Of a stretch of DNA of 25,879 nt, positions 312 through 16,943 are shown piece by piece. The first letter of the stretch is position 1, and each line of letters starts with the position of its first letter. The position numbers were made by a program, and so were the translations under genes. The DNA is taken from IMG/VR virus record IMGVR_UViG_3300025880_000092, positions 1 through 25,879 of that record. One strand, given 5' to 3'. A model generated the notes under the pieces. It saw nothing but the letters and a program-made list of their open reading frames with translations. It searched no databases and was not told the DNA's origin. Source of the DNA: a virus.

Positions 312-1538
312 ATGATAACATTTAAAGATACATTAACAGAACAGAAGAACACACACATGACACACATTGAGGATAAGGTTCTCTATGGTGGCGTTAAGGG
401 TACACGTGAAGCTATACTAGCTTTGCGTGAACTACGTGATATGCTAAAAGGTTCTCATAGCGGATCAGTATCCGTTAAATGGGATGGAGCACCTGCTATC
501 TTTGCTGGAGAAGATCCATCTGACGGCAAATTCTTTGTTGCTAAGAAAGGTATCTTTAATAAGAACCCTAAAATTTATAAAACTGCAGCAGAAGTTGATG
601 AAGATACATCAGGCGATCTTGCTGATAAATTAAAAGACGCACTTGAATACTTACCAGAACTTGGTATTAAAGGTGTAATCCAAGGAGATTTTCTATATAG
701 TTCTGGAGACATTAATAAGGAGACAATTGATGGGGACAAATACATTACTTTCCACCCTAATACTATTGTTTATGCTGTGCCTAGTAATGGTGCAGCCGCA
801 CGAGATATCCAAAAATCAAGAATTGGCATTGTCTGGCACACAACATATAAGGGTAAAACATTTGAAGACATGAAGGCATCATATGGTGTCGATACAAATA
901 AGTTTAAAAAATCTAAAAATGTATGGTCACAAGATGCTATGTTAAGAGATATGACTAATGTAACTATGTCTGCAAAGGATACTAAAGATGTTACCAAACT
1001 ACTTAGTGACTGCGGTAAACTATTTACGACAATCTCAGGAACAACACTTAGACAACTGGAAGCAAATCAATTACTTGCACAACATATCGAACAATATAAC
1101 AACACGTTTGTCCGTAAAGGTCAAGTTATTAAAGATACAACAAAACACACTGCTGGTCTCATTCGTTGGATCGACAACAGATATAAAGCAGAAAAAGCAA
1201 AGATGAAGACTGATAGAGGTAAAGCATCACGACAGAAAAAGCTTGATGATCTACTTGCATTCTTCTCTCCTAGTAATAGAATTAACTTGATTCGTATGTT
1301 CGAGTTACAAAAACTTATTGTACTAGCTAAATTAAAACTTATAAATAGTCTTAATAAACTAAGTAATACTAAAACCTTTGTTAAAACTAAGAATGGTTAT
1401 ACAACCACTGGTGAAGAAGGTTATGTAGCAATTGATAAACTTGGCGGTGATGCTGTGAAAATAGTTGATCGTATGGAATTTTCATACAACAACTTTTCAC
1501 CTGATATATTAAAAGGATGGGACAAACCAGGAAGATGA
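312..1538 (+). CDS. DUF6267-type protein with DNA/RNA ligase motifs, possibly packaged in the head
   Basis: This 408-residue protein belongs, from memory, to the family labelled DUF6267 in marine T4-like phages. It carries what looks like the covalent nucleotidyltransferase motif set: motif I K56-W-D-G59, a motif III-like G125-D-F-L-Y-S130, a IIIa-like H176-T-T-Y179, motif IV E369-G-Y-V372, and motif V V382-K-I-V385. Motifs IV and V resemble those of T4 RNA ligase 1. About 190 mostly helical, Lys-rich residues separate IIIa from IV. The N-terminus MITFKDTLTEQ resembles a capsid-targeting sequence with a possible gp21-type cut after LTE. There is no Shine-Dalgarno before 312; the next in-frame ATG is at 357 (M16). 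Enzymatic activity is inference. It heads the cluster and its stop overlaps an ATG at 1535. Confidence 0.85.
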   Translation: MITFKDTLTEQKNTHMTHIEDKVLYGGVKGTREAILALRELRDMLKGSHSGSVSVKWDGAPAIFAGEDPSDGKFFVAKKGIFNKNPKIYKTAAEVDEDTSGDLADKLKDALEYLPELGIKGVIQGDFLYSSGDINKETIDGDKYITFHPNTIVYAVPSNGAAARDIQKSRIGIVWHTTYKGKTFEDMKASYGVDTNKFKKSKNVWSQDAMLRDMTNVTMSAKDTKDVTKLLSDCGKLFTTISGTTLRQLEANQLLAQHIEQYNNTFVRKGQVIKDTTKHTAGLIRWIDNRYKAEKAKMKTDRGKASRQKKLDDLLAFFSPSNRINLIRMFELQKLIVLAKLKLINSLNKLSNTKTFVKTKNGYTTTGEEGYVAIDKLGGDAVKIVDRMEFSYNNFSPDILKGWDKPGR

Positions 1539-1546
1539 GTAAAGAA

Positions 1547-1804
1547 ATGAAATCATTTAATACATTCGTACCAGTAAATGAAGCAAAAGCTTTTGATCTG
1601 GATAAACTTAAAAAGGCATATTCTAGTATGCCAGATAGACTTTCACTTGATAAGTCACGTGAATTAAGTAAAGTTGTTAATAAATTTAGTAAAGACGAAT
1701 TACTTCAGGTAAGAAAAGCTGATATAAAATGGCTATCAAGTATGGCAACTACTGCTCTAATTAGTAAGCATAAAATGACTGCTGCAGACTTGAGGAAAAA
1801 ATAA
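1547..1804 (+). CDS. small internal-head-type protein with capsid-targeting N-terminus
   Basis: This 85-residue basic protein has no named function. I chose the ATG at 1547 because it gives MKSFNTFVPVNEAKAF, matching the MKSF..F N-termini of the next genes; an ATG at 1535 overlapping the previous stop would add four residues. A possible prohead-protease cut follows V-N-E. The body is helical with repeated Lys/Leu, ending in an IKWLSSMATTAL segment, a pattern I associate with small conserved proteins of marine T4-like phages. It shares the A of its stop (TAATG at 1804) with the next gene, suggesting translational coupling. A role as a DNA-associated head protein is inferred from the N-terminus, charge and neighbours. 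Confidence 0.75.
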   Translation: MKSFNTFVPVNEAKAFDLDKLKKAYSSMPDRLSLDKSRELSKVVNKFSKDELLQVRKADIKWLSSMATTALISKHKMTAADLRKK

Positions 1805-2451
1805 TGAAATCTTTTAAGTCATTCCGATTAGACGAAGCATTTGGTAGAGCAAGATTTAATCAACAGCTAAAGAAAAAAGGCATTGATGTAAACAAGCAAC
1901 ATAGTAGTAATGTTAAAGATGCTGCAGCCGCTAAGAAAAGAGCATCTGCTGCTTCTAAAGATCATACTGCATTCCGTAAGAAATATCCAAATATTAAGTT
2001 TGATGAAAAAGCCGAAGATCCAGATATTAAGGATCGTGACGGAGCACAGCCAGCTGCATATCACAAAGGTCTTTCTAAGTCAACTAAAGTAAAACGTGAT
2101 GCTCAGTTTAAGAAGCAAGCTAAAATGGCAGATGATAATCCTGATGCTTATAAGCCAGCTCCTGGGGATGCTACAGCTAAGACAAAGACATCTAAGCATA
2201 CAAAAAAGTATAAACAGATGTTTGGTGAAGATGCTAAAACTGGTTTGGCTAAGAAGGCTGAGAAGTCTGGTATGCCAATTGGTATATTACGCAAAGTATA
2301 TAACCGTGGTGTTGCTGCATGGAAAACAGGACATAGGCCAGGGACTACACCAGAACAATGGGGTTACGCAAGAGTTAATTCCTTTATAACTAAATCCTCT
2401 GGTACTTGGGGTAAAGCAGATAAAGACCTAGCAGCAAAGGTTAGAAAATAA
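1804..2451 (+). CDS. DUF5824-type basic protein, putative internal head protein
   Basis: This 215-residue, very Lys-rich protein starts MKSFKSFRLDEAFG, with a likely prohead-protease site after L-D-E followed by Ala, as in T4 internal proteins. Residues about 20-145 are low-complexity and charged. The C-terminal 70 residues hold a conserved domain (KKAEKSGMPIGILRKVYNRG, then HRPGTTPEQWGYARVNSF and GTWGKADKDL) that I recognise as the DUF5824 type found in many tailed phages. The biochemical role of that domain is unknown. TAATG overlaps link it to both neighbours. Packaging in the capsid is inferred from the N-terminus and context. Confidence 0.8.
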   Translation: MKSFKSFRLDEAFGRARFNQQLKKKGIDVNKQHSSNVKDAAAAKKRASAASKDHTAFRKKYPNIKFDEKAEDPDIKDRDGAQPAAYHKGLSKSTKVKRDAQFKKQAKMADDNPDAYKPAPGDATAKTKTSKHTKKYKQMFGEDAKTGLAKKAEKSGMPIGILRKVYNRGVAAWKTGHRPGTTPEQWGYARVNSFITKSSGTWGKADKDLAAKVRK

Positions 2452-2882
2452 TGAAATCATTTAATTTATTTACTGAAGGTTATAATCCTTCGGAGCATGA
2501 AGAAGGTAAACCGGCTACTGTAGCTCGTGCTAAGGCTTTAACACCAGGGCAAGAACCTGTTGATGAAGTATTAAGTATTAAGCAAAGACGTGATCGTGGT
2601 ATATCTGCTCGTAAGAATAAAACTAAAATGGCAATGGGTAGACGTAAAGCTGCTAATAAAATTGCTTCTCCAGATAAACTAAAGAAACGTGCTCAAAGAC
2701 AAGCTAGAACAGCTATGGCTGACAAGCTGGCTAAAGATCAACCTAAGGGTAAAATGACTGCAGCACGTAAATCAGAGATTGAGAAGCGTTTAAGCAAGAT
2801 GAAACCACGTATAAATAATATAGCAAAGCGTATGTTAAAAGATGTTCGTAAAGCAGAAATAGCAAGAAAACGTGGAAAGTAA
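2451..2882 (+). CDS. Arg/Lys-rich protein with capsid-targeting N-terminus
   Basis: This 143-residue protein opens MKSFNLFTEGYNPSEHEEGK, so a protease cut after F-T-E would remove nine residues. The rest is strongly basic and almost entirely helical: LSIKQRRDRG, MGRRKAANKIASPDKLKKRA, then IEKRLSKMKPRINNIAKRML and a final KRGK. I recognise the type from marine T4-like phages, where it has no assigned function. The charge suggests nucleic-acid binding, for example DNA condensation in the head, but no known DNA-binding fold can be named. It follows the previous gene with a TAATG overlap and precedes the nucleotidyltransferase gene by five bases. Confidence 0.8.
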   Translation: MKSFNLFTEGYNPSEHEEGKPATVARAKALTPGQEPVDEVLSIKQRRDRGISARKNKTKMAMGRRKAANKIASPDKLKKRAQRQARTAMADKLAKDQPKGKMTAARKSEIEKRLSKMKPRINNIAKRMLKDVRKAEIARKRGK

Positions 2883-2887
2883 TACTT

Positions 2888-3889
2888 ATGGGAATCCCAT
2901 CATTTAGCCAGTATCTAGTTGAAGAGGAACAAGCAGTTTATTTTACTTTTGGTAGAATGAATCCTCCAACTATTGGTCATGAAAAACTATTGAACACACT
3001 AGCTAAACAGGCTGGTAGAAATCCGTATAGGATTTATCTATCTCAATCAACAGATAAGAGTAAAAATCCTTTACAGTACAACGATAAGATTAAATATGCA
3101 AGGAAGATGTTTCCTAAGCACGCACGTCAGATCCTTATTAATAAAAAGGTTAAAACATTTATAGATGCAGCAACAACATTATATGACGAGGGTTTTAAAT
3201 CAGTCGTAATGGTTGTTGGATCAGATCGTGTTAATGAATTTGATATTCTTTTAAATAAGTATAATGGTTCAAAAGGTAGACATGGTTTCTTTAACTTTAA
3301 AAGTATTAAAGTGATATCTGCTGGTGAAAGAGACCCAGATGCAGATGGTGCTACTGGAGCATCTGCTAGTAAACAGAGAGCAGCTGCTAAAGCTAATGAC
3401 TTTACATCATTTTCTCAAGGCTTACCTAAACCATTATCCAATTCTGATGCAAAGAAACTCTTTAATGATATCCGTAGTGCTATGGGAATCAAAGAGGAAG
3501 CATCATTTTATCATCACGTTGAATTAAAATCAGTATCAGAAGAACGTGAAGCATTTGTAAATGGAGATTTATTCTCCTTAGGCGAATCAGTTATAATAAA
3601 GAGTACAGACGAAGTTGGTACTATTTGTATGCTAGGTGCTAACTATGTTATTGTAGAGACACCTAACCGTAAAACAAGACAGTGGCTTGAATCAGTAGAA
3701 AAGATTGAAGAAGGTAATGGTCTTTGGGCAAACATCCGTGCTAAGAAAGCACGTGGTGAAAAGATGAGAAAAAAAGGTGCTAAAGGTGCTCCTACAGATG
3801 CTCAGATTAAACACGCTCAAAGTACAAGTGAAAAGAAAAACGAAGAAACAAAATATTCATTTGTAAGCTACATTAAGGACCAGAGTTAA
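2888..3889 (+). CDS. cytidylyltransferase-fold nucleotidyltransferase with capsid-targeting N-terminus
   Basis: This 333-residue protein has a HIGH-superfamily nucleotidyltransferase domain, as in NMN adenylyltransferase and glycerol-3-phosphate cytidylyltransferase. It shows GRMNPPTIGH (residues 22-31, with the T-x-G-H nucleotide-binding motif), VVMVVGSDRVNEF (106-118), and S159-A-S-K-Q-R164, which resembles the ISxTxxR motif. The substrate cannot be told from sequence. It begins MGIPSFSQYLVEEEQ, with a possible prohead-protease site after L-V-E, and a second site-like I-K-E precedes ASFYHH after about residue 200. A small beta-rich SH3/KOW-like domain follows (FVNGDLFSLGE to RQWLESVEKIEE), then a Lys-rich tail. 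Its stop shares a base with the next start. Packaging with DNA is inferred. Confidence 0.85.
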   Translation: MGIPSFSQYLVEEEQAVYFTFGRMNPPTIGHEKLLNTLAKQAGRNPYRIYLSQSTDKSKNPLQYNDKIKYARKMFPKHARQILINKKVKTFIDAATTLYDEGFKSVVMVVGSDRVNEFDILLNKYNGSKGRHGFFNFKSIKVISAGERDPDADGATGASASKQRAAAKANDFTSFSQGLPKPLSNSDAKKLFNDIRSAMGIKEEASFYHHVELKSVSEEREAFVNGDLFSLGESVIIKSTDEVGTICMLGANYVIVETPNRKTRQWLESVEKIEEGNGLWANIRAKKARGEKMRKKGAKGAPTDAQIKHAQSTSEKKNEETKYSFVSYIKDQS

Positions 3890-4191
3890 TGCTTAATTTT
3901 AAAAAATTTATTTCTGAAGAAAATTTGGAAGAACGTGGTGCTGATGGTAAAGGTCACTATAGATCAACTGAGAAAGGCGCAGGCTTAACTCAAAAAGGCA
4001 GAGATGCTATTAATAGAAAAACTGGTAGCAACCTAAAGGCTCCAGTTACAGGTAAAGCTAAAGCTGGTAGTAAAGCAGCTGGACGTAGGAAATCATTCTG
4101 TGCTCGTATGGGCGGAATGAAAGGACCTATGAAAGATGAAAAAGGGAGACCTACTCGTAAGGCCATGTCTCTCAGAAGATGGAAGTGTTAA
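3889..4191 (+). CDS. DUF6321-type small basic protein, putative internal head protein
   Basis: This 100-residue protein starts MLNFKKFISEENLEERG, a capsid-targeting-like N-terminus with a possible cut after I-S-E. The C-terminal third has the conserved pattern RRKSFCARMGGMKGPMKDEK...RKAMSLRRWKC, which I recognise as the DUF6321 type common in phages. The two Cys residues (in SFCARM and the final WKC) and the invariant-looking C-terminus suggest a compact metal-binding or DNA-binding fold, but no function is established. It is coupled to the previous gene by TAATG. The highly basic composition fits a DNA-associated head protein. Confidence 0.82.
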   Translation: MLNFKKFISEENLEERGADGKGHYRSTEKGAGLTQKGRDAINRKTGSNLKAPVTGKAKAGSKAAGRRKSFCARMGGMKGPMKDEKGRPTRKAMSLRRWKC

Positions 4192-4194
4192 GTT

Positions 4195-4479
4195 ATGGCT
4201 ACAGATGTCGACTGGAAGAAACGGTTAGACCGGATCGAGGAAAAGATGGATAAGATGAGTGAAGTCTTAATCTCACTTGCTCGCTTTGAAGAAAAGATGG
4301 ATGCTTATAACGAGTACCGTGAGAGATCATGGGATCGTATGAATAAGTTTTCGGAGAAACTAGATAAAATTGAAAAGATGTGTGACGATAATGCTCGCAC
4401 AGTAAATACTATAAACAAATTATTCTGGATAGCTACTGTTGCTATCGGGAGTGCAGTAGCCACCCAATTTTGGATATAA
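4195..4479 (+). CDS. coiled-coil protein with C-terminal membrane anchor
   Basis: This 94-residue protein has a long heptad-rich helix (RLDRIEEKMDKMSEVLISLA and onward to KIEKMCDDNARTVNTI) and one C-terminal transmembrane segment (about residues 76-94, FWIATVAIGSAVATQFWI). This layout resembles XhlA-type phage membrane proteins that act with holins, and also generic phage membrane-anchored coiled coils; sequence alone does not decide. It begins four bases after the preceding stop. Unlike its neighbours it has no capsid-targeting N-terminus. Its base composition is less AT-rich over the first 120 bases than nearby genes. Confidence 0.75.
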   Translation: MATDVDWKKRLDRIEEKMDKMSEVLISLARFEEKMDAYNEYRERSWDRMNKFSEKLDKIEKMCDDNARTVNTINKLFWIATVAIGSAVATQFWI

Positions 4480-4491
4480 AGGAAAAACCAA

Positions 4492-5280
4492 ATGGAAAAA
4501 GATACTATGACTAAGTTGGGCGATGCGTACGCACAAGTCCAAGAAGCAACAGCTAAACAACGTGCTTTAGCTAGCATTAAAGCTAAACCAAAAGGACAGG
4601 TAACATTACCTAAAGCTCCTTGGGATAAAAAGAAAGAAGGTGTCGAGGAAGACGCTTCTAACGATACATCTGATGATGGCGCAGGATTAGATAAAGCAGA
4701 TCCTAAAGCAGCTAAGAAAAAGTTTAAAGATCGTAAAGATAAAGACATTGATAATGATGGTGATACAGATTCTTCTGATGAATACCTTCATAAACGTCGT
4801 AAAGCTATTTCTAAAAATGTTAAAGAAGCAGACGATAAAACAACACCTTGTCCTAAGTGTGATGGTTCAATGGAAAATCATGCTAAAGATTGTCCAAACC
4901 ATCCAGATAATAAAGGTAAAAAAGATGATACTGCTGTAATGAATCCTAAGAATGATGAAAAAGAAAAGGTTGCAACAGAAATGGCAGAACCTAAATGGCC
5001 AGTTTACAAACGTATTATTGAAAAAGTATCTGCAGATAAAGCAAAGAAAGATGCAGAAAAAGGCGAAGAAATGGATTCAAAAGATTCAGAAGGCGCTAAG
5101 AAGTTTGTAGATGATCACGAAAAGAATGATGATAAGAAACAAGGCGATAAAGTTGATATCGCAGTAGCAATAAAAAAGAATGCATCTGCAATGGCTAATC
5201 CAATGAAAGCGGCACCAATGCGCCCAGGTGATAATAAAGCCGGAGATAAAGTTGCTGATAAACCAGAAGGAAAAATGTAA
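4492..5280 (+). CDS. acidic/basic repeat-rich protein with EF-hand-like loop and CxxC motif
   Basis: This 262-residue, highly charged protein is probably disordered. Three features stand out: an N-terminal site V16-Q-E18 followed by Ala that fits the prohead-protease pattern; a dockerin/EF-hand-type calcium loop D85-I-D-N-D-G-D-T-D-S-S-D96 followed by EYLHKRRK; and a possible zinc site C120-P-K-C123...H130...C134-P-N-H137. The remainder is Lys/Asp/Glu repeats ending in Met- and Pro-rich sequence. Similar DxDNDGD...YLHKRRK segments occur in proteins of marine T4-like phages near head genes. The start at 4492 has AAGGA upstream. A role as a core or internal head protein is inference. Confidence 0.78.
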   Translation: MEKDTMTKLGDAYAQVQEATAKQRALASIKAKPKGQVTLPKAPWDKKKEGVEEDASNDTSDDGAGLDKADPKAAKKKFKDRKDKDIDNDGDTDSSDEYLHKRRKAISKNVKEADDKTTPCPKCDGSMENHAKDCPNHPDNKGKKDDTAVMNPKNDEKEKVATEMAEPKWPVYKRIIEKVSADKAKKDAEKGEEMDSKDSEGAKKFVDDHEKNDDKKQGDKVDIAVAIKKNASAMANPMKAAPMRPGDNKAGDKVADKPEGKM

Positions 5281-6560: not shown

Positions 6561-6727
6561 AAATAAAAGAAGATGCACCTACAAATTCTGTTGCTAGCGG
6601 TGGGTATGATTTAGCACCAAATGCTGGACCAAGAGTAAAAGAAATTCCTGTTACAGATCGCAGGCGAAGAAAAGATAAGCAACCTGTACTACTAAAAAGA
6701 TTTAGAAAGTTTGTTAAAGATGATTAA
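6557..6727 (+). CDS. very small basic protein of a T4-like family
   Basis: This 56-residue gene begins at the ATG overlapping the previous stop (ATGA). It encodes MKIKEDAPTNSVASGGYDLA, then NAGPRVKEIPVTDRRRRKDK and a basic tail ending KFVKDD. The D-A-P-T-N-S plus Gly-rich stretch and the basic tail recall small proteins at the same place in marine T4-like phages. I-K-E near the N-terminus could be a prohead-protease site. Its last eight bases overlap the start of the spanin gene. Function is unknown. Confidence 0.72.
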   Translation: MKIKEDAPTNSVASGGYDLAPNAGPRVKEIPVTDRRRRKDKQPVLLKRFRKFVKDD

Positions 6728-7139
6728 AGTTTATTTATTTTTATTTATCGTTGGTATCTTAGGTAGTGCTGGCTATGGCGGTTATAGCTATTATCTTTGG
6801 TCACAAGAAACAATGAATACATTACGTGAAAATAATGTAAAGTTAGAACAAGTCACAGTTGTTCAAGCTAATACTATTACCGAACTAGAAAACAATGCCG
6901 CAAAGAATGAAGAACTAAATAAGAACTTATCTACAGCACTACAGAAATCACAAGTGCACTTGGATGCTTTGAGAAACAAATTCTCAAAGATTGATTTAAC
7001 TATGGAAGCTATTACAAACCCAAATGGTTTGGAAGAAAGGGTTGACAATGCCGTTGCTAAACTTATTAAAAGAATTGAAAATGAAACATCTCCTGATCGT
7101 AACAGCACCGATGCTGCTGACAGCGTGTCTGGGAACTAG
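6720..7139 (+). CDS. inner-membrane spanin subunit (Rz-like)
   Basis: Starting at the ATG at 6720, this 139-residue protein has one N-terminal transmembrane segment (YLFLFIVGILGSAGYGGYSY) with almost no cytoplasmic part, followed by a long periplasmic coiled coil (about residues 27-95). This is the standard i-spanin layout. A downstream gene in another frame starts inside this one and encodes a lipoprotein, as in Rz/Rz1 and T4 PseT.3/PseT.2 pairs. In lysis, the i-spanin and o-spanin span the periplasm and fuse inner and outer membranes. A TTG at 6711 is in frame but adds only three residues; the ATG overlaps the previous gene. Confidence 0.78.
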   Translation: MIKVYLFLFIVGILGSAGYGGYSYYLWSQETMNTLRENNVKLEQVTVVQANTITELENNAAKNEELNKNLSTALQKSQVHLDALRNKFSKIDLTMEAITNPNGLEERVDNAVAKLIKRIENETSPDRNSTDAADSVSGN

Positions 7140-7431
7140 AACACCCGAACCAGTTGTTATAACACAAACAGAGTTTACTAAACAATCTATTCCTATTCAA
7201 ACACAACCAAAAGGGGTGTCTATGCCACCAGTTGATTGGTATGTAGTAAATGGTGATAATGTTGAAGAATTCTTAGAACGTATAAAGAATGATACTGGAG
7301 CACCAGTATTCTTTGCTATTACACCAAAGGGCTATGAAAACTTGGCTATTGGTATTGGTGATCTAAGACGTTACATTAAAGATGAGCAAGCTATTATCGG
7401 TTATTATGAAGAAGCATTAACTGAAGAATAA
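7081..7431 (+). CDS. outer-membrane lipoprotein spanin subunit (Rz1-like)
   Basis: The ATG at 7081 gives MKHLLIVTAPMLLTACLGTR, a short lipoprotein signal with lipobox L-T-A-C, so the mature protein should start with an acylated Cys. A Pro/Thr/Gln-rich linker follows (TEFTKQSIPIQTQPKGV), then a small domain WYVVNGDNVEEFLERI...AITPKGYENLAIGIGDLRRY. The first 59 bases overlap the i-spanin in a different frame. The C-terminal domain is longer than in lambda Rz1 but resembles lipoproteins beside i-spanins in marine T4-like phages. An upstream in-frame GTG- or ATG-like extension to 7024 would destroy the signal peptide and is rejected. Confidence 0.8.
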   Translation: MKHLLIVTAPMLLTACLGTRTPEPVVITQTEFTKQSIPIQTQPKGVSMPPVDWYVVNGDNVEEFLERIKNDTGAPVFFAITPKGYENLAIGIGDLRRYIKDEQAIIGYYEEALTEE

Positions 7432-7561: not shown

Positions 7562-8533
7562 ATGCTATTCGAAGAACAAATTTCCCGAAAACCTGATCAC
7601 TATCCATGGACTAAACAGTTCATAGAAGCAATATGGAAAGGTTTCTGGACACCGGAAGAATTTAACTTCCGATCAGACTATTCCCAATTTAAAAATGATT
7701 TAACACCAGCTGAACAACAAATAGTTGTTAAGACAATGTCTGCTATTGGTCAGATAGAGATTGCTGTTAAATCATTCTGGGCAGATGTGGGTAATAACCT
7801 ACCGCACCCATCTATCAAAGACTTAGGTTATGCTATGGCTAATTCAGAGGTCATACATAATATGGCTTATGAAAAGATCCTCGATGTTCTACATCTTACA
7901 CACGTATTTGAAGAGAACCTTAATGTTGATGTTATTAAAGGTCGTGTTGACTATCTAAGAAAATACAATAAGAAAGTATATGAGGACGATAGAAAACAAT
8001 ACATCTATTCAATTGCACTCTTTACATTGTTTGTAGAAAATGTTAGCTTGTTCTCGCAGTTCTATATTATCATGCACTTAAATCGTAATAAAGCAGTAAT
8101 GAAAGATTGTGCTCAACAAGTACAGTATACACGTAATGAAGAAATGCTACACGCACAAGTAGGCATTAAATTGATTCAAACATTACGTGAAGAATACCCT
8201 GAGTTGTTTGATAAAGAATTAGAAGACCGTATCAAGCATGAGTGTGTTGAATCACTAAAAGCAGAAAGCAAAGTAATTGAGTGGATTATGGATGGACATA
8301 CAGCAGATGGTCTGAGTGCAGATATTCTAAAATCTTTTATCGCTAAGCGCATGGCAGATTCTATGGATATGATCGGTATAGATAACTCTGAAATCGTCTA
8401 TGATGAAGGTCATATTAAAGAGACTTTCTGGTTTGACGAAGAACTATTTGGTGCTAACATGACAGACTTCTTTCAAAAGAGACCTGTTGAGTACGCTAAA
8501 GGCAAGGGCATTTCCGCCGATGATTTATTTTAG
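7562..8533 (+). CDS. nrdB: class Ia ribonucleotide reductase, beta (radical) subunit
   Basis: This 323-residue protein is the R2 subunit that makes and stores the radical used by NrdA to turn ribonucleotides into deoxyribonucleotides. Metal ligands can be placed at E66 (QIEIAVKSFW), E96 and H99 (ANSEVIHNMAY), E159 (FVENVSLF), E194 and H197 (RNEEMLH). Y103, four residues after H99, matches the radical Tyr of E. coli NrdB (Y122), so this is a tyrosyl-radical enzyme. The first ligand is Glu where E. coli has Asp84. The C-terminus GISADDLF fits the tail that docks into NrdA. GGAG lies about ten bases before the ATG. nrdA follows 12 bases later. Confidence 0.93.
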   Translation: MLFEEQISRKPDHYPWTKQFIEAIWKGFWTPEEFNFRSDYSQFKNDLTPAEQQIVVKTMSAIGQIEIAVKSFWADVGNNLPHPSIKDLGYAMANSEVIHNMAYEKILDVLHLTHVFEENLNVDVIKGRVDYLRKYNKKVYEDDRKQYIYSIALFTLFVENVSLFSQFYIIMHLNRNKAVMKDCAQQVQYTRNEEMLHAQVGIKLIQTLREEYPELFDKELEDRIKHECVESLKAESKVIEWIMDGHTADGLSADILKSFIAKRMADSMDMIGIDNSEIVYDEGHIKETFWFDEELFGANMTDFFQKRPVEYAKGKGISADDLF

Positions 8534-8545
8534 AAGGATTACATA

Positions 8546-10195
8546 ATGGGCTTTGAATGGGCAAATGATGATTCACGGGTGTTCCTCTCCCGTGGATACA
8601 TTGACGGTAACATGACCGTTGAAGAAAGAGTAAGAGGTATTGCGCAGACAGCAGAAAAGAACCTTGAACTGGAAGGTACTGGATGGGCTGATAAATTCTA
8701 TGACTATATGAGTCGTGGTTTCTATTCGCTATCATCTCCTGTGTGGGCTAACTATGGAACATCTAAAGGATTACCAATTTCATGTAATGGAGTTTATATC
8801 TCTGATACTATGGAATCAATTCTATTAAAGACTGCAGAAGTAGGAATGCAAACAAAGCTAGGAGCAGGAACATCTGCATACTTTGGTGCATTAAGGTCAA
8901 GAGGTGAAACTATTAAGAGTGGTGGAACTGCTGATGGTCCTGTACACTTTATGAACTTATGGGAAACAACTGTTGATGTTGTAGCTCAAGGTAATGTAAG
9001 ACGTGGATCAATGGCTGCATATCTTGATGTTGAATCACCAGACATTATGGAATTCCTAGATGCTCGTGAAGAGGGTTCATCAATTATTAATCTAAGTCTC
9101 GGTGTTACTATCGGAGATGAGTGGATGCAATCCATGATTGATGGTGATGTAGATAAGAGAACAATATGGGCACGTATTCTGCGTAAACGTCGTGAGAGTG
9201 GTTATCCTTACTTGTTCTTTAAAGATACAGTAAATAATAATGCACCTAAAGTATTACGTGATCAAGGTATTAAGATTTGGGCATCTAATCTATGTTCAGA
9301 GATTGCTTTACCGTCCGCAGAAGACGAATCGTTTGTATGTAATCTAGCATCTATGAACTTACTAAAGTATGATGAGTGGAAAGAAACTGACGCAGTAGAA
9401 ACAATGATCTGGTTTCTTGATGCTGTTATGGAAGAGTACATTGAAAAGACTGATAATATTCCTTTCATGGCTTCTGCTAATAACTTTGCACGCAGATGGC
9501 GTGCACTTGGTCTAGGTCAACTTGGTTGGCATTCATATCTACAATCTAAGATGATTCCCTTTGAGTCATTTGATGCTCATCTATTAACTGTTGAAATCTC
9601 TAAATTTATTGAAGATCATTCTAAGGCAGCATCTAAGGAACTTGCTATTGAATATGGTGAACCAGAAGGTATGCTAGGATATGGTATGCGAAACCTAACC
9701 ACTTGTGCTATTGCTCCTACTACAAGTTCATCATTTATTCTAGGTCAAGTATCACCATCTATCGAGCCATTGGCATCTAACTACTTTACTAAAGACTTGG
9801 CAAAGGGCAAATTTACTTACAAGAATCCTTATCTAAATGACGTACTAGAAAAGTATAGTAGGAATGATAGTGCAACTTGGCTAGATATTTTAAAGCATGG
9901 TGGTTCAGTACAGCATCTTAATTTCTTATCTAAGATTGAAAAAGATGTATTTAAAACTTTCTCTGAAATCTCACCATTGGTTATTGTCCAACAAGCTGGT
10001 GCAAGGCAGAAATATATAGATCAAGCACAGAGTTTAAATATACTTATCCACCCTGATGTGTCAGCTAAAGATGTGAATGCATTGATTATAGAAGGATGGA
10101 AACTAGGTGTAAAAACTTTCTATTATCAACGATCAGCTAACCCTGCTCAAGAATTGGTAAGAGATATTATGAATTGTGCAGCATGCGAAGGATAA
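8546..10195 (+). CDS. nrdA: ribonucleotide reductase, alpha subunit, compact form without ATP cone
   Basis: This 549-residue protein is the catalytic R1 subunit. Key residues are visible: C80 (LPISCNG) and C265 (ESFVCNLASMNL), the active-site redox pair; N248, C250 and E252 (SNLCSEIALP), matching N437/C439/E441 of E. coli; the phosphate-binding IAPTTSSS; the radical-transfer pair Y526-Y527 (TFYYQR); and the C-terminal shuttle C544-A-A-C547. It is about 200 residues shorter than E. coli or T4 NrdA, and the first redox Cys is at 80 rather than 225. The ATP-cone and much of the N-terminal helical domain are therefore missing, so dATP feedback through a cone is not possible. AAGGA precedes the start. 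Confidence 0.93.
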   Translation: MGFEWANDDSRVFLSRGYIDGNMTVEERVRGIAQTAEKNLELEGTGWADKFYDYMSRGFYSLSSPVWANYGTSKGLPISCNGVYISDTMESILLKTAEVGMQTKLGAGTSAYFGALRSRGETIKSGGTADGPVHFMNLWETTVDVVAQGNVRRGSMAAYLDVESPDIMEFLDAREEGSSIINLSLGVTIGDEWMQSMIDGDVDKRTIWARILRKRRESGYPYLFFKDTVNNNAPKVLRDQGIKIWASNLCSEIALPSAEDESFVCNLASMNLLKYDEWKETDAVETMIWFLDAVMEEYIEKTDNIPFMASANNFARRWRALGLGQLGWHSYLQSKMIPFESFDAHLLTVEISKFIEDHSKAASKELAIEYGEPEGMLGYGMRNLTTCAIAPTTSSSFILGQVSPSIEPLASNYFTKDLAKGKFTYKNPYLNDVLEKYSRNDSATWLDILKHGGSVQHLNFLSKIEKDVFKTFSEISPLVIVQQAGARQKYIDQAQSLNILIHPDVSAKDVNALIIEGWKLGVKTFYYQRSANPAQELVRDIMNCAACEG

Positions 10196-10204
10196 GGAGA
10201 GAGT

Positions 10205-10354
10205 ATGTCTAAACCAATAAAAATAGAATGTGGTATGTGTGAAGAAATATCATTTGTAGAGGTTGTGTCTGATGAAACACCACATCATTGTCCAATGTGT
10301 GGTCATCCGGTTAACTTTGAATCTGATGGATATGATGAGGAAGATGACTACTAA
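10205..10354 (+). CDS. 49-residue zinc-ribbon/rubredoxin-like protein
   Basis: This short gene begins nine bases after nrdA with AAGGAGAG before the ATG. The protein has two CxxC pairs, C9-G-M-C12 and C29-P-M-C32-G, 16 residues apart, and an acidic tail (GYDEEDDY). The pattern is that of a zinc ribbon or rubredoxin-like metal knuckle. It may be a structural zinc protein or, given its position after nrdA, a redox partner; the second idea is speculation. It is co-oriented with the nrd genes and probably in the same transcript. Confidence 0.7.
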   Translation: MSKPIKIECGMCEEISFVEVVSDETPHHCPMCGHPVNFESDGYDEEDDY

Positions 10355-10381: not shown

Positions 10382-10822
10382 ATGTGGTTATATGAAGATA
10401 AAGAATTTAAGCCCACCCCAGATGAACTATCGTCTTGGGTGGGTTTTGTATATGAAGTACAAGATAAGAGTAATGGTAAAAAGTATATCGGTAAGAAGGG
10501 TTTCTGGTCCACTCGCCGTCTAAAGCCATTAAAAGGTAAGACCAGAAAAAGAGTTGTTAAGAAAGAATCCGATTGGATGAAGTATTATGGCTCTAACGAA
10601 CAAATCAAACTATTATTAGAAGAACATGGTCCTACTCGCTGGAATCGCACTATTTTAAGATTGTGTAAAAGCAAGGGAGAGATGAGTTATTACGAAGCTA
10701 AACTGCAATTTGATAAAAACGTACTTTTTGACTCAAATTATTATAATGAATTCATAGGTTTAAAGATACATTCCAAGCACGTTGCAAATCTAATCGAGGA
10801 AATGATGAATGGTGGAGATTAA
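10382..10822 (+). CDS. GIY-YIG-type endonuclease
   Basis: This 146-residue protein opens MWLYEDKEF and contains WVGFVYEVQDKSNGKKYIGK. The G-F-V-Y and K-Y-I-G blocks are spaced as in GIY-YIG nucleases. KESDWMKYYGSNEQ and a later helix SYYEAKLQFDKNVL follow; the Glu there is a candidate metal-binding residue and an Arg in FWSTRRLKP a candidate catalytic Arg. The family is frequent in marine T4-like phages as a stand-alone putative endonuclease. It could be a homing-type (Seg-like) enzyme, given its place beside the nrd genes, or a nuclease for host DNA. AAGG precedes the ATG. Confidence 0.8.
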   Translation: MWLYEDKEFKPTPDELSSWVGFVYEVQDKSNGKKYIGKKGFWSTRRLKPLKGKTRKRVVKKESDWMKYYGSNEQIKLLLEEHGPTRWNRTILRLCKSKGEMSYYEAKLQFDKNVLFDSNYYNEFIGLKIHSKHVANLIEEMMNGGD

Positions 10823-11009
10823 TATAAAGAAAGCCAATGAGTTAATGTGGGCTGTAAAAGGCCAGTTGATACCAGAAAACTATTCAGATGAAGATATAAA
10901 GAAAACATATGATTCATACTTTGCAAGGATGTGGGGTAACCATGAATATACATATCGTTTAGAAGGATTTGAAGAAGCATGGGCAAAAAGAGTAAAAGAT
11001 AAGATGTAA
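10809..11009 (+). CDS. small protein of unknown function
   Basis: This 66-residue protein (MVEINIKKANELMWAVKGQL...FARMWGNHEYTYRLEGFEEA) overlaps the end of the nuclease gene by 14 bases in another frame. It is soluble, helical and aromatic-rich; no motif is recognised. The overlap and shared direction suggest it is translated with the nuclease. Its stop codon lies within the stem of a possible terminator. Confidence 0.6.
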   Translation: MVEINIKKANELMWAVKGQLIPENYSDEDIKKTYDSYFARMWGNHEYTYRLEGFEEAWAKRVKDKM

Positions 11010-11035
11010 CATATTTGTTACACTTTATTGTTTTT
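11005..11035 (+). terminator. possible intrinsic terminator after the nrd operon
   Basis: TGTAACA (11005-11011) and TGTTACA (11016-11022) form a perfect seven-base stem with a four-base loop, followed by a T-rich stretch ending in five T's at 11031-11035. The stem is AT-rich, so it is probably weak, but its position, at the end of the gene group and before the next promoter, fits. Confidence 0.5.
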
Positions 11036-11067
11036 ATAAAAAAAAGTTAAAAAAGTAAAGAAAACAC

Positions 11068-11096
11068 TTTACATCTATGTTTAAATGTGTTATATT
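11068..11096 (+). promoter_or_regulatory. sigma70-like promoter with inverted repeat over the -35 box
   Basis: TTTACA (11068-11073), 17-base spacer, TATATT (11091-11096), with TGTGT giving an extended -10. GTAAAG (11055-11060) and CTTTAC (11067-11072) form an inverted repeat with a six-base spacer that covers part of the -35 box and could be an operator. The 28 bases at 11049-11076 are identical to 22599-22626. Confidence 0.78.
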
Positions 11097-11128
11097 AGTT
11101 ATAGAAACAATAACTAAGGAATTATAAT

Positions 11129-11353
11129 ATGGGTTATATAACATTCAAAGATCAAATGTTTGATGACGAGCATGGCGGTCCTTTTGATCGTGGCATTATG
11201 GATTCTTATTATGGTAGACGATATGCACCTCATAGGTATTCTAATGGAACTCATAACCTTGGTCGTATCGAAAAATTAACTGCCGAAGAAACTCATGCTT
11301 ATTGCATGGGATTTGAATATAATGAAGAAAGCGGAGATAGAAAGGAATGGTAA
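11129..11353 (+). CDS. small conserved phage protein of unknown function
   Basis: This 74-residue acidic protein (FDRGIMDSYYGRRYAPHRY, then KLTAEETHAYCMGFEYNEES, ending GDRKEW) resembles short proteins of marine T4-like phages that share the DSYY...Y.NG and GY...E..GDKK pattern. It is the first gene after the promoter at 11068-11096, so it is probably expressed early. The region GGAATT before the ATG may serve as ribosome binding site. No function can be given. Confidence 0.7.
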   Translation: MGYITFKDQMFDDEHGGPFDRGIMDSYYGRRYAPHRYSNGTHNLGRIEKLTAEETHAYCMGFEYNEESGDRKEW

Positions 11354-11532
11354 TGAACCAGTCACAAATAATGTTTGTAGCAGAATATACTCTGCTTAAT
11401 GATGAAAAGTCAATTGCTTACTTTGATAGCCAAAGTAAGGCACTAGAATGGGTTAAAGATGCCAATAAATTTGGTTTACTAGATACCTTTATTATTGATC
11501 AACGTAAAGTTAAAATGGAAGAGTTTATATGA
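11353..11532 (+). CDS. small protein of unknown function
   Basis: I prefer the ATG at 11353 (MNQSQIMFVAEYTLLNDEKS) because AAGGA at 11342-11346 is six bases from it; the in-frame ATG at 11347 touches that sequence. The 59-residue product has an alternating beta/alpha pattern (MFVAEYTLL, then SKALEWVKDANKFG, then TFIIDQRKV), suggesting a small beta-alpha-beta fold. Its end overlaps the nuclease gene by four bases (ATGA). Possibly an accessory of that gene, but this is only from position. Confidence 0.6.
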   Translation: MNQSQIMFVAEYTLLNDEKSIAYFDSQSKALEWVKDANKFGLLDTFIIDQRKVKMEEFI

Positions 11533-12374
11533 TATTAATTGATTATAATGGAGTTGCCATCGGCAACTTCCTTGCTATGAAAATGCAGACGGACGAGGAT
11601 TTACTCCGTCATATGGTTCTTAACTCAATTCGTATGTACCGCAAAAAGTACAGTAAAGAATTTGGTGAGATTGTTGTTGTTGCTGACGGCACTAATAACT
11701 GGCGCAAGCGTGTGTTTCCTCAGTATAAAGCTAATCGTAAGAAATCACGTGAGAAATCTAGTGTAGATTGGAATGAAGTGTTCCGTATTCTTAATACTGT
11801 TCGTGATGAAATACGCGATAACTTTCCTTATAAAGTAATACATCAAGATGGATGTGAAGCTGACGATTCGATAGCACAGATAGCTACGGCAACTCAAGAG
11901 TTCGGTAGATATGAGCCTGTTATGATTATATCAGCAGATAAAGATTTTGCTCAACTCCAAATAAATAGTAATGTTAAGCAGTATTCTCCTATGACTAAGA
12001 AACTTATTGTAGAAAAGAATCCTAGAACATTCTTACTTGAGCATGTACTTAAAGGTGACTCATCAGATGGTGTGCCTAATGTATTATCAGATGATGATGT
12101 ATTTGTAGATGGTCGTCGTCAGACACCTTTATCAGCTAAGAAAAAAGCTGCCTTAATGGAAGACCCTTTAGCCCTAGGTGAAGATGTCTTGCGTAATATA
12201 CAACGTAATCGTACCATGATTGACTTGATGGAATTACCAGAAACTATAAAACTGGATATTATAAATAACTATGATAGCCAAGATCCAACAGAGAATAAAT
12301 CTAAGGTTCTGAACTATCTAATTAACAAACGTTGTAGATTATTAATTGAAAGTGTAGGAGAGTTTATTTTATGA
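11529..12374 (+). CDS. rnh: T4 RNase H-type 5' nuclease (FEN-1 family)
   Basis: This 281-residue protein matches the T4 RNase H family, which removes RNA primers and 5' flaps from Okazaki fragments. The acidic metal-binding residues lie in LIDYNG (residues 3-8), VVADGTNNWRKRVFPQYKAN, the EADDSIA motif, SADKDFAQL, and GDSSDGVPN, which is the helix-hairpin-helix entrance. The length fits T4 RNase H (about 305). It overlaps its neighbours by four bases on each side (ATGA), so translation is probably coupled. It is the first clear replication gene of this block. Confidence 0.88.
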   Translation: MILIDYNGVAIGNFLAMKMQTDEDLLRHMVLNSIRMYRKKYSKEFGEIVVVADGTNNWRKRVFPQYKANRKKSREKSSVDWNEVFRILNTVRDEIRDNFPYKVIHQDGCEADDSIAQIATATQEFGRYEPVMIISADKDFAQLQINSNVKQYSPMTKKLIVEKNPRTFLLEHVLKGDSSDGVPNVLSDDDVFVDGRRQTPLSAKKKAALMEDPLALGEDVLRNIQRNRTMIDLMELPETIKLDIINNYDSQDPTENKSKVLNYLINKRCRLLIESVGEFIL

Positions 12375-12787
12375 AACTTGTTTATGAAGTCTTTGAGAAA
12401 TATTCAAAGGCTAGAAGTAAAGAGGAGCGTATAGCTGTTCTTAAAGATAATGAATCATGGTGGTTAAAAGATATTATCCGTGGCACGATGGATGATACAG
12501 TTAGATGGAACTTACCTGCGGGTGCTCCACCTTACACTGAAAATAAACCTGAAAGTGCACCTTCCCAACTCAGTAAACAGCACAAGAAGTTTGTCAACTT
12601 TGTAGTAGGCGGACCTGGTGATAATATGAATGGTATACGGAGGGAAAGATTGTTTATAGAAATTCTGGAAGCTATTCATCCAGAAGATGCTAAGCTAGTA
12701 ATTGCTATGATTTCAAAAAAGAAGACCGTTAAAACATTAACTAGACCTATAGTAAATGAAGCCTTTCCTGGGCTTCTAAAGGACTAA
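12371..12787 (+). CDS. DUF6433-type phage protein
   Basis: This 138-residue protein follows the 5' nuclease with a four-base overlap. It shows a pattern I recognise as DUF6433 in marine T4-like phages: RWNLPAGAPPY, KQHKKFVNFVVGGPGDNMNG, then RRERLFIEILEAIHPEDAKL and a C-terminal VNEAFPGLL. It is soluble and helical with no catalytic motif visible. Its constant place after the RNase H gene suggests a replication-linked role, but that is inference. A terminator lies just downstream. Confidence 0.78.
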   Translation: MKLVYEVFEKYSKARSKEERIAVLKDNESWWLKDIIRGTMDDTVRWNLPAGAPPYTENKPESAPSQLSKQHKKFVNFVVGGPGDNMNGIRRERLFIEILEAIHPEDAKLVIAMISKKKTVKTLTRPIVNEAFPGLLKD

Positions 12788-12819
12788 CATTGCCTAACAA
12801 ACTAAAAAATTAACCAATG

Positions 12820-12852
12820 GGTCGAAGTAGAAATTCTACTTTGGCCTTTTTT
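12820..12852 (+). terminator. strong intrinsic terminator
   Basis: GGTCGAAGTAG (12820-12830) pairs with CTACTTTGGCC (12836-12846): 11 pairs, two of them G-T, around the loop AAATT, followed at once by TTTTTT (12847-12852). An A-run precedes the stem. This is the best terminator in the window and should end transcripts from the rnh group. It starts inside the possible ATG at 12817, which bears on where the next gene starts. Confidence 0.82.
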
Positions 12853-15806: not shown

Positions 15807-16152
15807 CTCGTTTGGAGTAACACCAAAGGTACTATGTACTGATTCTGATCTTAATAAGGCAGATACCAATAATGATGGTGTTATTACTGATGCTGAGATA
15901 GCTCGTCAAGAGAGACTAATTCGTCTTGAGAATGAAGATAAAAAGGAAGATGCCCAAAGAGCCATGGCATGGTTCTGCTTAGTTGGAATGTTAGGGTATC
16001 CATTTGCAGTTATACTAGCTGTTGTATTTGGAGTAGATAGTGCCGCCAAGATTTTAGGCGATATGGCTGGTGTATATTTCATAGCTGTTGCTGGTATCAT
16101 AGCTGCATTCTTTGGAGCTGCTGCCATAAAATCTAATGCCGCAAAGAAATAA
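15790..16152 (+). CDS. EF-hand protein with two transmembrane segments
   Basis: This 120-residue protein contains a canonical EF-hand calcium loop, D25-T-N-N-D-G-V-I-T-D-A-E36, preceded and followed by helix-forming residues. A charged linker follows, then two hydrophobic segments (about residues 57-80, AWFCLVGMLGYPFAVILAVV, and 87-112, DMAGVYFIAVAGIIAAFFGA). It should sit in the inner membrane with the EF-hand on one side. It could be a holin-like or signalling protein; nothing in the sequence proves either. The start overlaps the previous gene; ATTCTAGGAG lies before it. Confidence 0.78.
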   Translation: MEQKPNSFGVTPKVLCTDSDLNKADTNNDGVITDAEIARQERLIRLENEDKKEDAQRAMAWFCLVGMLGYPFAVILAVVFGVDSAAKILGDMAGVYFIAVAGIIAAFFGAAAIKSNAAKK

Positions 16153-16166
16153 AATGAAAGTTTATT

Positions 16167-16943
16167 ATGAAAAGATTAATCTATCAAGTTTATGTTGGAC
16201 CTAAATCTAACTTATATGATTGGTGTACTAATAGTGTAGAACAATATGCTAAAGATATAGGTGCCGATTATATTCTACAGACAGTACCTAAGTTGTTTAT
16301 TAAACCAGATCCCTTTACTACAAATCGTAGTGAGGGAGCATCTCGTTTAGGGTATCTTCCTATATATGAAAAAGAAAACGCCTTTGGTTACTTTGATGAC
16401 TATGATCAGATTGCTATTATTGATAGTGATATTTTTATTCGTGATAAGTCACCTAATATCTTTAATGAGATAAAGCCAGATGATGATTTTGCTGGTGTTT
16501 ATGAAAGAGAGATGCCAGTCACACAAAACTATTCTAACAAGATTCGTAACTATTCGCGTATGCAATATGGTGGAATGAATATGGACTTTGACTTTGAACA
16601 CCCACACGGTGGTGCTTTTATGAATATGGGTATGATGGTAATGAACAAATCATTCCAAAAATATCTAAGAGGTATGTCTCCAAAAGAATGGATCACACAA
16701 CCTTTATGGAAAGACTTTGTTGATGGTAAGGGTACTTGGAAATGGTCTACAGATCAGACACTTCTAAATGCTTTTATTAAGATGGAAGGCATTAAAGTAA
16801 CTCACTTATCATATAAATGGAATGCATTATTTACTGCAATACCTGATGATAGTTTAAGTGAAGCACACTTTATACATTTCTTCCTTAAGGATAAATTACC
16901 ACAAAAAGGTGAGAATGTTGAGGAACTTATGAAGTATGTCTAA
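16167..16943 (+). CDS. GT-A-fold glycosyltransferase 1 (GT8-like)
   Basis: This 258-residue protein has a GT-A-type layout: LIYQVYVGPKS then IGADYILQ, the metal/nucleotide-sugar DxD motif at D86-S-D88 (AIIDSDIFI), a NMGMMVMNKSF region, and STDQTLLNAFI near residue 200, similar to the acceptor region of GT8-like enzymes. It has no membrane segment and no signal peptide. It opens the glycan gene block and shares its N-terminal plan with the genes at 16936 and 19004, suggesting duplication. The sugar and acceptor are unknown. It ends with an eight-base overlap with the next gene. Confidence 0.82.
   Translation: MKRLIYQVYVGPKSNLYDWCTNSVEQYAKDIGADYILQTVPKLFIKPDPFTTNRSEGASRLGYLPIYEKENAFGYFDDYDQIAIIDSDIFIRDKSPNIFNEIKPDDDFAGVYEREMPVTQNYSNKIRNYSRMQYGGMNMDFDFEHPHGGAFMNMGMMVMNKSFQKYLRGMSPKEWITQPLWKDFVDGKGTWKWSTDQTLLNAFIKMEGIKVTHLSYKWNALFTAIPDDSLSEAHFIHFFLKDKLPQKGENVEELMKYV

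Follow-up and report, generated by a model that had tools for sequence, protein, structure and literature searches.

Predicted T4-type capsid-targeting leaders on a row of phage proteins, two of them enzyme-like, in a T4-like marine myovirus

In the window (the whole stretch of 25,879 nucleotides that was analyzed), six consecutive genes at 312–4191 encode products whose N-termini lie in the register of the T4 capsid-targeting sequence. Their leaders, 9–12 residues long, carry an aromatic residue at P7, an aromatic or bulky residue at P4, an I/L-type residue at P3, and Glu at P1 (Table 1). We consider it very likely that this gene row is a T4-type tagged cargo operon, whose products would dock in the prohead, be cut by a gp21-type protease, stay in the head, and probably enter the host. 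Two nucleotide-handling enzymes would probably be carried in the particle and delivered with the DNA. This is the known tag system of T4 with new cargo and not a new mechanism. The nearest named relatives of the phage, a T4-like marine myovirus, are classed as Kyanoviridae.

Table 1 Predicted cargo genes and leaders in the window (each leader ends at its predicted cut).
Feature	Position	Strand	Basis or remark
DUF6267 protein, 408 aa, ligase-like	312..1538	+	Pfam DUF6267 E 6.6e-103
Leader MITFKDTLTE of DUF6267 protein	312-341	+	loose rule + profile
85-aa basic protein	1547..1804	+	loose rule; alternative ORF start 1517
Leader MKSFNTFVPVNE of 85-aa protein	1547-1582	+	loose rule
215-aa basic protein, C-terminal DUF5824	1804..2451	+	DUF5824 E 1.3e-26
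Leader MKSFKSFRLDE of DUF5824 protein	1804-1836	+	loose rule + profile
143-aa very basic protein	2451..2882	+	loose rule + profile
Leader MKSFNLFTE of 143-aa protein	2451-2477	+	loose rule + profile
NMNAT-like nucleotidyltransferase (phage cytidyltransferase family), 333 aa	2888..3889	+	phrog_3041 E 2.6e-67
Leader MGIPSFSQYLVE of NMNAT-like nucleotidyltransferase	2888-2923	+	loose rule + profile
100-aa basic DUF6321 protein	3889..4191	+	DUF6321 E 8.8e-24
Leader MLNFKKFISE of DUF6321 protein	3889-3918	+	loose rule + profile
262-aa protein, different longer leader	4492..5280	+	homologue pattern AYxEVxE
Leader MEKDTMTKLGDAYAQVQE of 262-aa protein, second leader type, uncertain	4492-4545	+	homologue pattern

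A sequence-only reading had proposed seven T4-type tags, and all seven N-termini are present in the sequence at the places it gave; the six consecutive genes hold up as T4-type, while the seventh site, at 4492, is of another leader type. All six follow a loose T4-like rule (F/Y at residues 3–6, Glu at 8–13, and I/L/V/F/M two residues before the Glu), against 2 of the 41 other genes called (Fisher p = 2.6e-6, a value that is descriptive only because the cluster was chosen by that reading). As background, ~3% of positions fit the loose rule. The most general T4 rule, met by 19–22%, was too common to discriminate and was set aside.

A tag profile was then trained on the other families plus T4 and applied to the distinct N-termini of the family left out. 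It recognized leaders in 124 of 191 N-termini of five cargo families versus 1 of 91 distinct N-termini in the controls, three untagged neighbor families. Recognition reached 54/60 for the cytidylyltransferase and 50/73 for DUF6267, and was 6/9 for DUF6321, 7/16 for DUF5824, and 7/33 for the 143-aa family; none was recognized in the families of the 85-aa protein (0/5) and of gene 4492 (0/15). In a scan of whole relative genomes, made with simple, crude gene calls and a profile that overlooks leaders that are short or carry indels, few tags turned up beyond this locus. Internal tag-like sites that could serve as cuts between fused domains were rare (8 matches in 396 proteins); one of them, YSFASFITE/AEYQGRKV in L102 (a slash marks the predicted cut), is suggestive.

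Homologue alignments, which the earlier reading had named as a check, showed that P7, P4, P3, and P1 are kept across unrelated protein bodies, and that the leaders vary except at these positions next to almost invariant bodies, so that the leader evolves separately from the body. Among 39 close DUF6267 homologues, pairwise identity is 46% over residues 2–9 and 95% over residues 11–20, with F4, I/L8, and E10 fixed; E10 is invariant in 69 homologues, and in the cytidylyltransferase family F6 and E12 are invariant in 38. The four positions equal residues 4, 7, 8, and 10 of T4 IPIII, where mutants show that residues 4 and 7 matter for targeting and 8 and 10 for processing (PMC9026906). After the predicted cut, the mature products are mostly basic (p = 1.4e-4), the 143-aa protein reaching a net charge of +20 per 100 aa. 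Judged from sequence, the leaders of the row are genuine T4-type tags, and the core of the earlier reading, capsid-targeting leaders on a set of proteins that includes two enzymes, is supported.

The smaller products differ in how far their tags extend among relatives. For the 85-aa protein, the tag is kept in near-identical relatives only, more distant ones being untagged. Short DUF5824 relatives carry a tag immediately before the domain, e.g., MIKFKAYINE/DATAGLKKKAEKSGMP. Homologues of the product of gene 4492 share a pattern resembling AYxEVxE, e.g., MNTNDIKKMMEAYLEVVSE, the site in the window being AYAQVQE, and the annotation of S-SCSM1 lists a partial homologue, gp92, among the virion proteins. 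This site may represent a second leader type, an assignment that we regard as uncertain.

The product of 2888..3889 has an NMNAT-like, Rossmann-type fold. Its best PDB fold matches are NaMNAT/PPAT (E 2.6e-4), phosphopantetheine adenylyltransferases matching about equally, and the family carries a nearly invariant NPPTxGH, a (H/T)xGH motif. For DUF6267, assignment as a ligase is less secure and would follow from one motif, KWDG (residues 56–59, invariant), and a middling fold match: for residues 56–213, RNA/DNA ligases were the top structural matches, with Z 6.5–5.1, a range that may be non-specific. In Foldseek, the whole DUF6267 model had no significant match, its hits being mostly BAR-like helices, and PDB sequence searches with either enzyme-like protein found no relatives. 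DUF6267 resembles ATP-dependent RNA/DNA ligases (T4 Rnl2, TbREL1, Trl1) in the KxDG motif (motif I) and in a partial fold match, but it has no sequence match to them, and a ligase activity would be putative. No leader is present on the DUF6267 proteins that were examined in cyanophages, and the domain is named nowhere in the open-access literature searched.

Under the proposed mechanism, the aromatic P7 and P4 of the leader would dock the protein to the scaffold core of the prohead, and a gp21-type prohead protease would cut at [I/L]xE, just past the Glu. The resulting proteins, most of them basic, would stay alongside the DNA inside the head and probably pass with it into the host. The cargo would comprise the NMNAT-like nucleotidyltransferase, the ligase-like DUF6267 protein, and small basic proteins resembling the T4 internal proteins. 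Speculatively, the enzymes might be active in the first minutes, for example in rebuilding NAD+ against NAD-depleting defenses or in sealing nucleic acids.

The cargo could instead be packaged and processed for head assembly or DNA condensation alone, without any function in the infected cell. In favor of this, a number of the products are small and strongly basic, and T4 IPIII has a role in head assembly, though IPII has none known (PMC9026906). However, two of the cargo proteins are enzyme-like, one having an invariant KWDG and the other invariant HxGH-type residues; packing alone would not be expected to conserve such residues, and we consider this explanation unlikely.

Homologues of gp21, for which the sequence-only reading had suggested a search, were found in 9 of 12 large relatives, including every one of the six contigs that reach 140 kb; the window, a fragment, contains no gp21, and a PF03420 search of its own record gave no match, an uninformative result since the controls were equally silent. 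The major capsid proteins of two relatives carry a cut site, VILE/NQEK. It is improbable that the leader is an uncut packaging or scaffold-binding signal whose Glu is kept for another reason. The T4 work does separate targeting (residues 4 and 7) from processing (residues 8 and 10) (PMC9026906), but in the DUF6267 and cytidylyltransferase leaders no positions are more constrained than P3 and P1, and even the shortest DUF6267 leaders (MELLNE/D) retain the cut site [L/I]xE, though nothing else of the pattern, a point against the tagged cargo reading.

Published proteomes place a homologue of the cytidylyltransferase/NMNAT in the virions of S-SM1, S-CREM2, and S-SCSM1, in agreement, as to presence, with the virion mass spectrometry check suggested earlier. 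All three detected homologues are tagged (MKKFSAFLNE in S-SM1, MKSFLQFLKE in S-SCSM1, and MKNFSSFLTE in S-CREM2). Across the S-CREM2 proteome, the four best tag scores, Cas9 included, all belong to virion proteins (p = 0.003). Replication in the S-SCSM1 proteome was not significant, one of three N-termini scoring 10 or more being a virion protein, and further virion proteins encoded by the corresponding cluster of this phage carry no tag. The accessible text of the published reports mentions no packaging tag. The gene arrangement of the window phage is different, with the tagged DUF6267 and DUF6321 adjoining the cytidylyltransferase. No study applying this targeting signal to the cargo of cyanophages or pelagiphages was found in the open-access literature, which is not proof.

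Contamination is named as a possibility by the authors of both cyanophage proteomes, and the virion homologues could be highly expressed contaminants whose shared N-terminus is a different signal. This is very improbable given their independent detection in three phages, the placement of the best-scoring S-CREM2 tags on virion proteins only, and a leader register equal to the tested signal of T4. Chance resemblance, despite how common short hydrophobic-x-Glu patterns are at N-termini at the rates given above, is hardly credible when six consecutive genes follow the rule, families and controls separate so sharply in the profile test, and homologue leaders vary yet keep the pattern.

The tagged cargo reading brings the gene row closest to T4 IPI-III and Alt, with which it shares an N-terminal leader of ten residues with matching register, the [I/L]xE cut site, a variable basic cargo, and, in relatives of the window phage, the gp21 protease. 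It differs in the families that make up the cargo: a single operon encodes six of them one after another, NMNAT-like and ligase-like proteins included, and their cutting and injection are predicted. The ejection proteins of SPN3US-type giant phages are likewise head-carried and cut by a prohead protease, but both the cargo and the protease of giant phages are probably distinct from the T4-type tag system described here. As in the phage NAD+ reconstitution pathways NARP1 and NARP2, an NMNAT-type reaction might restore NAD+ after an NAD-depleting defense, although no partner enzyme was identified in the window cluster and the NMNAT substrate of its enzyme is putative.

Earlier reports placed NMNAT-like proteins, a SAM lyase, a kinase, and Cas9 in cyanophage virions but gave no route by which they are packaged, and contamination was possible. 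A T4-type leader on several of these proteins offers such a route and opens the question to testing. The leader, being short and easy to recognize, can help in predicting which proteins abundant marine phages carry in the head. Should the NMNAT-like enzyme arrive together with the DNA, it could act against an NAD-depleting defense from the first minute. More tentatively, and with somewhat less than even confidence, a single interchangeable N-terminal tag may serve T4-like marine phages as a general address for loading enzymes (NMNAT-like, ligase-like, SAM-lyase, kinase, and even Cas9), so that packed enzymes would act on host defenses and nucleotides before phage expression and the injected set of uncultured phages could be read from sequence.

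The window is a 25.9-kb record of a T4-like myovirus whose nearest named relatives, Phage C48C1, Methylophilales phage Melnitz, and Pelagibacter phage HTVC008M, are assigned to the Kyanoviridae. Its ten genes between 312 and 5999 (named by start coordinate) were compared with Pfam and PHROGs. In some PHROG families, modules of these genes occur fused: phrog_455 matches DUF6267 as well as the cytidyltransferase, and phrog_3041 matches the latter as well as the DUF5824 protein. The modules therefore travel together as a set.

Coordinates of the genes and regions discussed (a slash marks the predicted cut)
Record	Position	Strand	Feature	Source
Window	312		DUF6267	Pfam/PHROGs
Window	within gene 1804		DUF5824 domain	Pfam/PHROGs
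Window	2888		phage cytidyltransferase	Pfam/PHROGs
Window	3889		DUF6321	Pfam/PHROGs
Window	4492–5280		other leader type (AYxEVxE); EF-hand-like DKDIDNDGDTDSSDEY stretch	
Window	5637		DUF7207	Pfam/PHROGs
Window	16167–22213		gene run resembling glycosyltransferases/sugar-related enzymes	by eye
S-CREM2 (L007)	7704–10313	-	virion Cas9 with capsid-targeting-like leader	
S-CREM2 (L007)	3837–5081	-	virion SAM lyase with capsid-targeting-like leader	
S-CREM2 (L007)	10579–12846	-	virion APH-like kinase with capsid-targeting-like leader	
S-SCSM1 (L440)	44215–44535		gp30, 106 aa, MKTFKQFMSE/SVN	
C48C1 (L265)	7622–9031		cytidyltransferase, annotated start MNPPTIGH	
Melnitz (L005)	15855–16523		Zeta-toxin/AAA-type kinase, tag-like MKTFAELQE/G	
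HTVC008M (L003)	6562–7224		Zeta-toxin/AAA-type kinase, tag-like MIPFILKE/G	

Judged by sequence, the leader tags of the cluster are genuine. The first six genes (312, 1547, 1804, 2451, 2888, and 3889) fit the T4-like leader rule, against only 2 of the 41 others. Their predicted mature products are basic, as are the T4 internal proteins (+4 to +20 per 100 residues, compared to a median of -1.2 for the rest of the window, p = 1.4e-4). IMG/VR homologues were collected on the basis of their similarity to either DUF6267 or the cytidyltransferase. The DUF6267 leader takes at least 69 forms (e.g., MENFSSYITE, MDFKEFITE, MFDSFQQFITE, MISFKQTITE), all with an I/L-x-E end, followed by a nearly invariant body (KNTHMTHIEDK); identity between homologues is 46% at residues 2–9 versus 95% at residues 11–20, with F4, I/L8, and E10 kept in 39/39 close homologues. 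F6 and E12 are likewise invariant in 38 cytidyltransferases. The sequence-only reading had placed tags on a ligase-like protein and a HIGH-type nucleotidyltransferase, and both are borne out by these alignments, where leaders vary apart from the bodies. The DUF5824 leader lies directly before the domain in short relatives and far from it in the window protein, indicating that it moves independently of the body.

A log-odds profile over the last seven leader residues (P7–P1, P1 being the Glu) was trained on the leaders of other families plus T4 MKTYQEFIAE and scored on the left-out family; the 143-aa family (gene 2451) was in no training set. Positive distinct N-termini numbered 50/73 for DUF6267, 54/60 for the cytidyltransferase, 6/9 for DUF6321, 7/16 for DUF5824, and 7/33 for the 143-aa family, compared to 1/91 for the untagged neighbor families at 4195, 5281, and 5637. 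The Fisher p overstates independence, as the rows are related sequences, but the contrast itself is clear. None of the N-termini of the 85-aa family (gene 1547, 0/5) or the gene 4492 family (0/15) was positive; of the seven leaders originally proposed, six fit the T4-like rule and that of gene 4492 is of another type. A partial S-SCSM1 homologue of the latter is listed as a virion protein.

A DNA pattern for MKxFxxF[L/F]xEA, searched over IMG/VR using no homology information, gave 72 ORFs of at least 40 residues among the matches listed. One similarity cluster including the cytidyltransferase held 52 of these, an upper figure for that family, as single linkage may join proteins via shared modules; one ORF was DUF6267-like (MKSFQTFLNE/AKNVHMEHFED), and the remainder fell in other groups, mostly without known domain.

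The cytidyltransferase model (pLDDT 83) matches NaMN and phosphopantetheine adenylyltransferases alike (E from 2.6e-4). In the DUF6267 model (pLDDT 74.5; KWDG invariant), the top structural matches of residues 56–213 are the RNA/DNA ligases REL1, T4 Rnl2, and Trl1 (Z 6.5–5.1, a possibly non-specific range), making "ligase-like" a fair label and "ligase" not an established one. In C48C1, an upstream GTG start yields IKNFSQYLLE/EE, a tag hidden by the downstream start annotated in GenBank. The cytidyltransferase of a relative (L102, contig group of L100) has a second, internal tag-like site (YSFASFITE/AEYQGRKV, residue 294), and the part after it resembles a protein encoded separately in C48C1 and HTVC008M; the C-terminal end of the window protein, YSFVSYIKDQS, is perhaps a remnant. 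The tag-like N-termini of the Melnitz and HTVC008M kinases are short, and in HTVC008M the kinase gene is flanked by those for DUF6267 and the cytidyltransferase.

Published proteomes place tagged cytidylyltransferases in virions of S-SM1, S-CREM2, and S-SCSM1, in line with the predicted virion presence. S-SM1 virions contain the putative citidylyltransferase T4-GC190 (MKKFSAFLNE/AE), undetected in S-PM2 virions (Sullivan et al., PMC3037559), whose annotated protein has no leader; this contrast is weak, as several genuine virion proteins likewise escaped the older study of S-PM2. S-CREM2 virion proteins (PMC10665884) include a cytidylyltransferase (MKNFSSFLTE/), a SAM hydrolase (MKDFDSFLEE/), an APH/ChoK-like kinase (MKRFDAFLTE/), and Cas9 (leader-like PLRFASFMAE/ at residues 17–25). 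With a profile trained without any S-CREM2 sequence, the top four of its 219 proteins were listed virion proteins (cytidylyltransferase, Cas9, kinase, and gp136; Fisher p = 0.003, somewhat optimistic because the cut-off was taken from the ranking, lower ones being weaker). The S-SCSM1 virion NMNAT begins MKSFLQFLKE/AA. Proteome-wide, S-SCSM1 gave no replication, just one of the three N-termini scoring 10 or more belonging to a listed virion protein. Its highest-scoring protein, gp30, is unmarked as a virion protein in the list, which marks the genes on both sides. Other S-SCSM1 virion proteins encoded in the cluster homologous to that of the window (gp89, 90, 92, 93, and 97) lack a T4-type tag, which is therefore not the sole way into the head. 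The S-PM2 and P-SSM2 DUF6267 proteins start close to the residue of the predicted cut, and the S-SCSM1 homologue is unmarked as a virion protein in that list. This fits a loading signal that can be detached, but it also implies that belonging to DUF6267 does not in itself make a protein cargo.

According to a review of the T4 head, the first ten residues of IPIII are enough for packaging, residues 4 and 7 mainly determining targeting and 8 and 10 processing; with Asp at 10, the protein is packaged uncut, and leader-only fusions are packaged, then delivered into cells (PMC9026906). Residues 4, 7, 8, and 10 correspond to P7, P4, P3, and P1 in the leaders of the marine phages. Cutting had been assigned to a gp21-type protease, and gp21 homologues were indeed found in 9/12 large relative contigs, including 6/6 of those of at least 140 kb. 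Its gene lies ~40–55 kb from the cluster in two relatives, which explains a fragment without it. In HTVC008M and Melnitz, the major capsid protein carries a VILE/NQEK site, and the gp21 N-termini include LIAE/A and YITE/A, compatible with self-cutting.

By analogy with T4, the six proteins would most likely attach to the prohead core through their leaders late in infection, gp21 would then cut the leaders off, and the mature proteins would stay amid the DNA and exit the head with it. Phages counter NAD+-destroying host defences by rebuilding NAD+ (PMC12774641, PMC11984713), and one testable idea is that an NMNAT reaction helps restore it here; no partner enzyme for this was identified in the cluster. 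The tag system (T4's) and the virion presence of the cytidylyltransferase/NMNAT family were already known. As far as the open-access literature shows, to which our search was confined so that earlier mention elsewhere is possible, what is new is that the tag is recognised in these marine phages, that six tagged genes form one operon, and that DUF6267, DUF5824, and DUF6321 proteins carry the tag, as do virion enzymes of S-CREM2 (Cas9 among them), for which it offers a packaging route.
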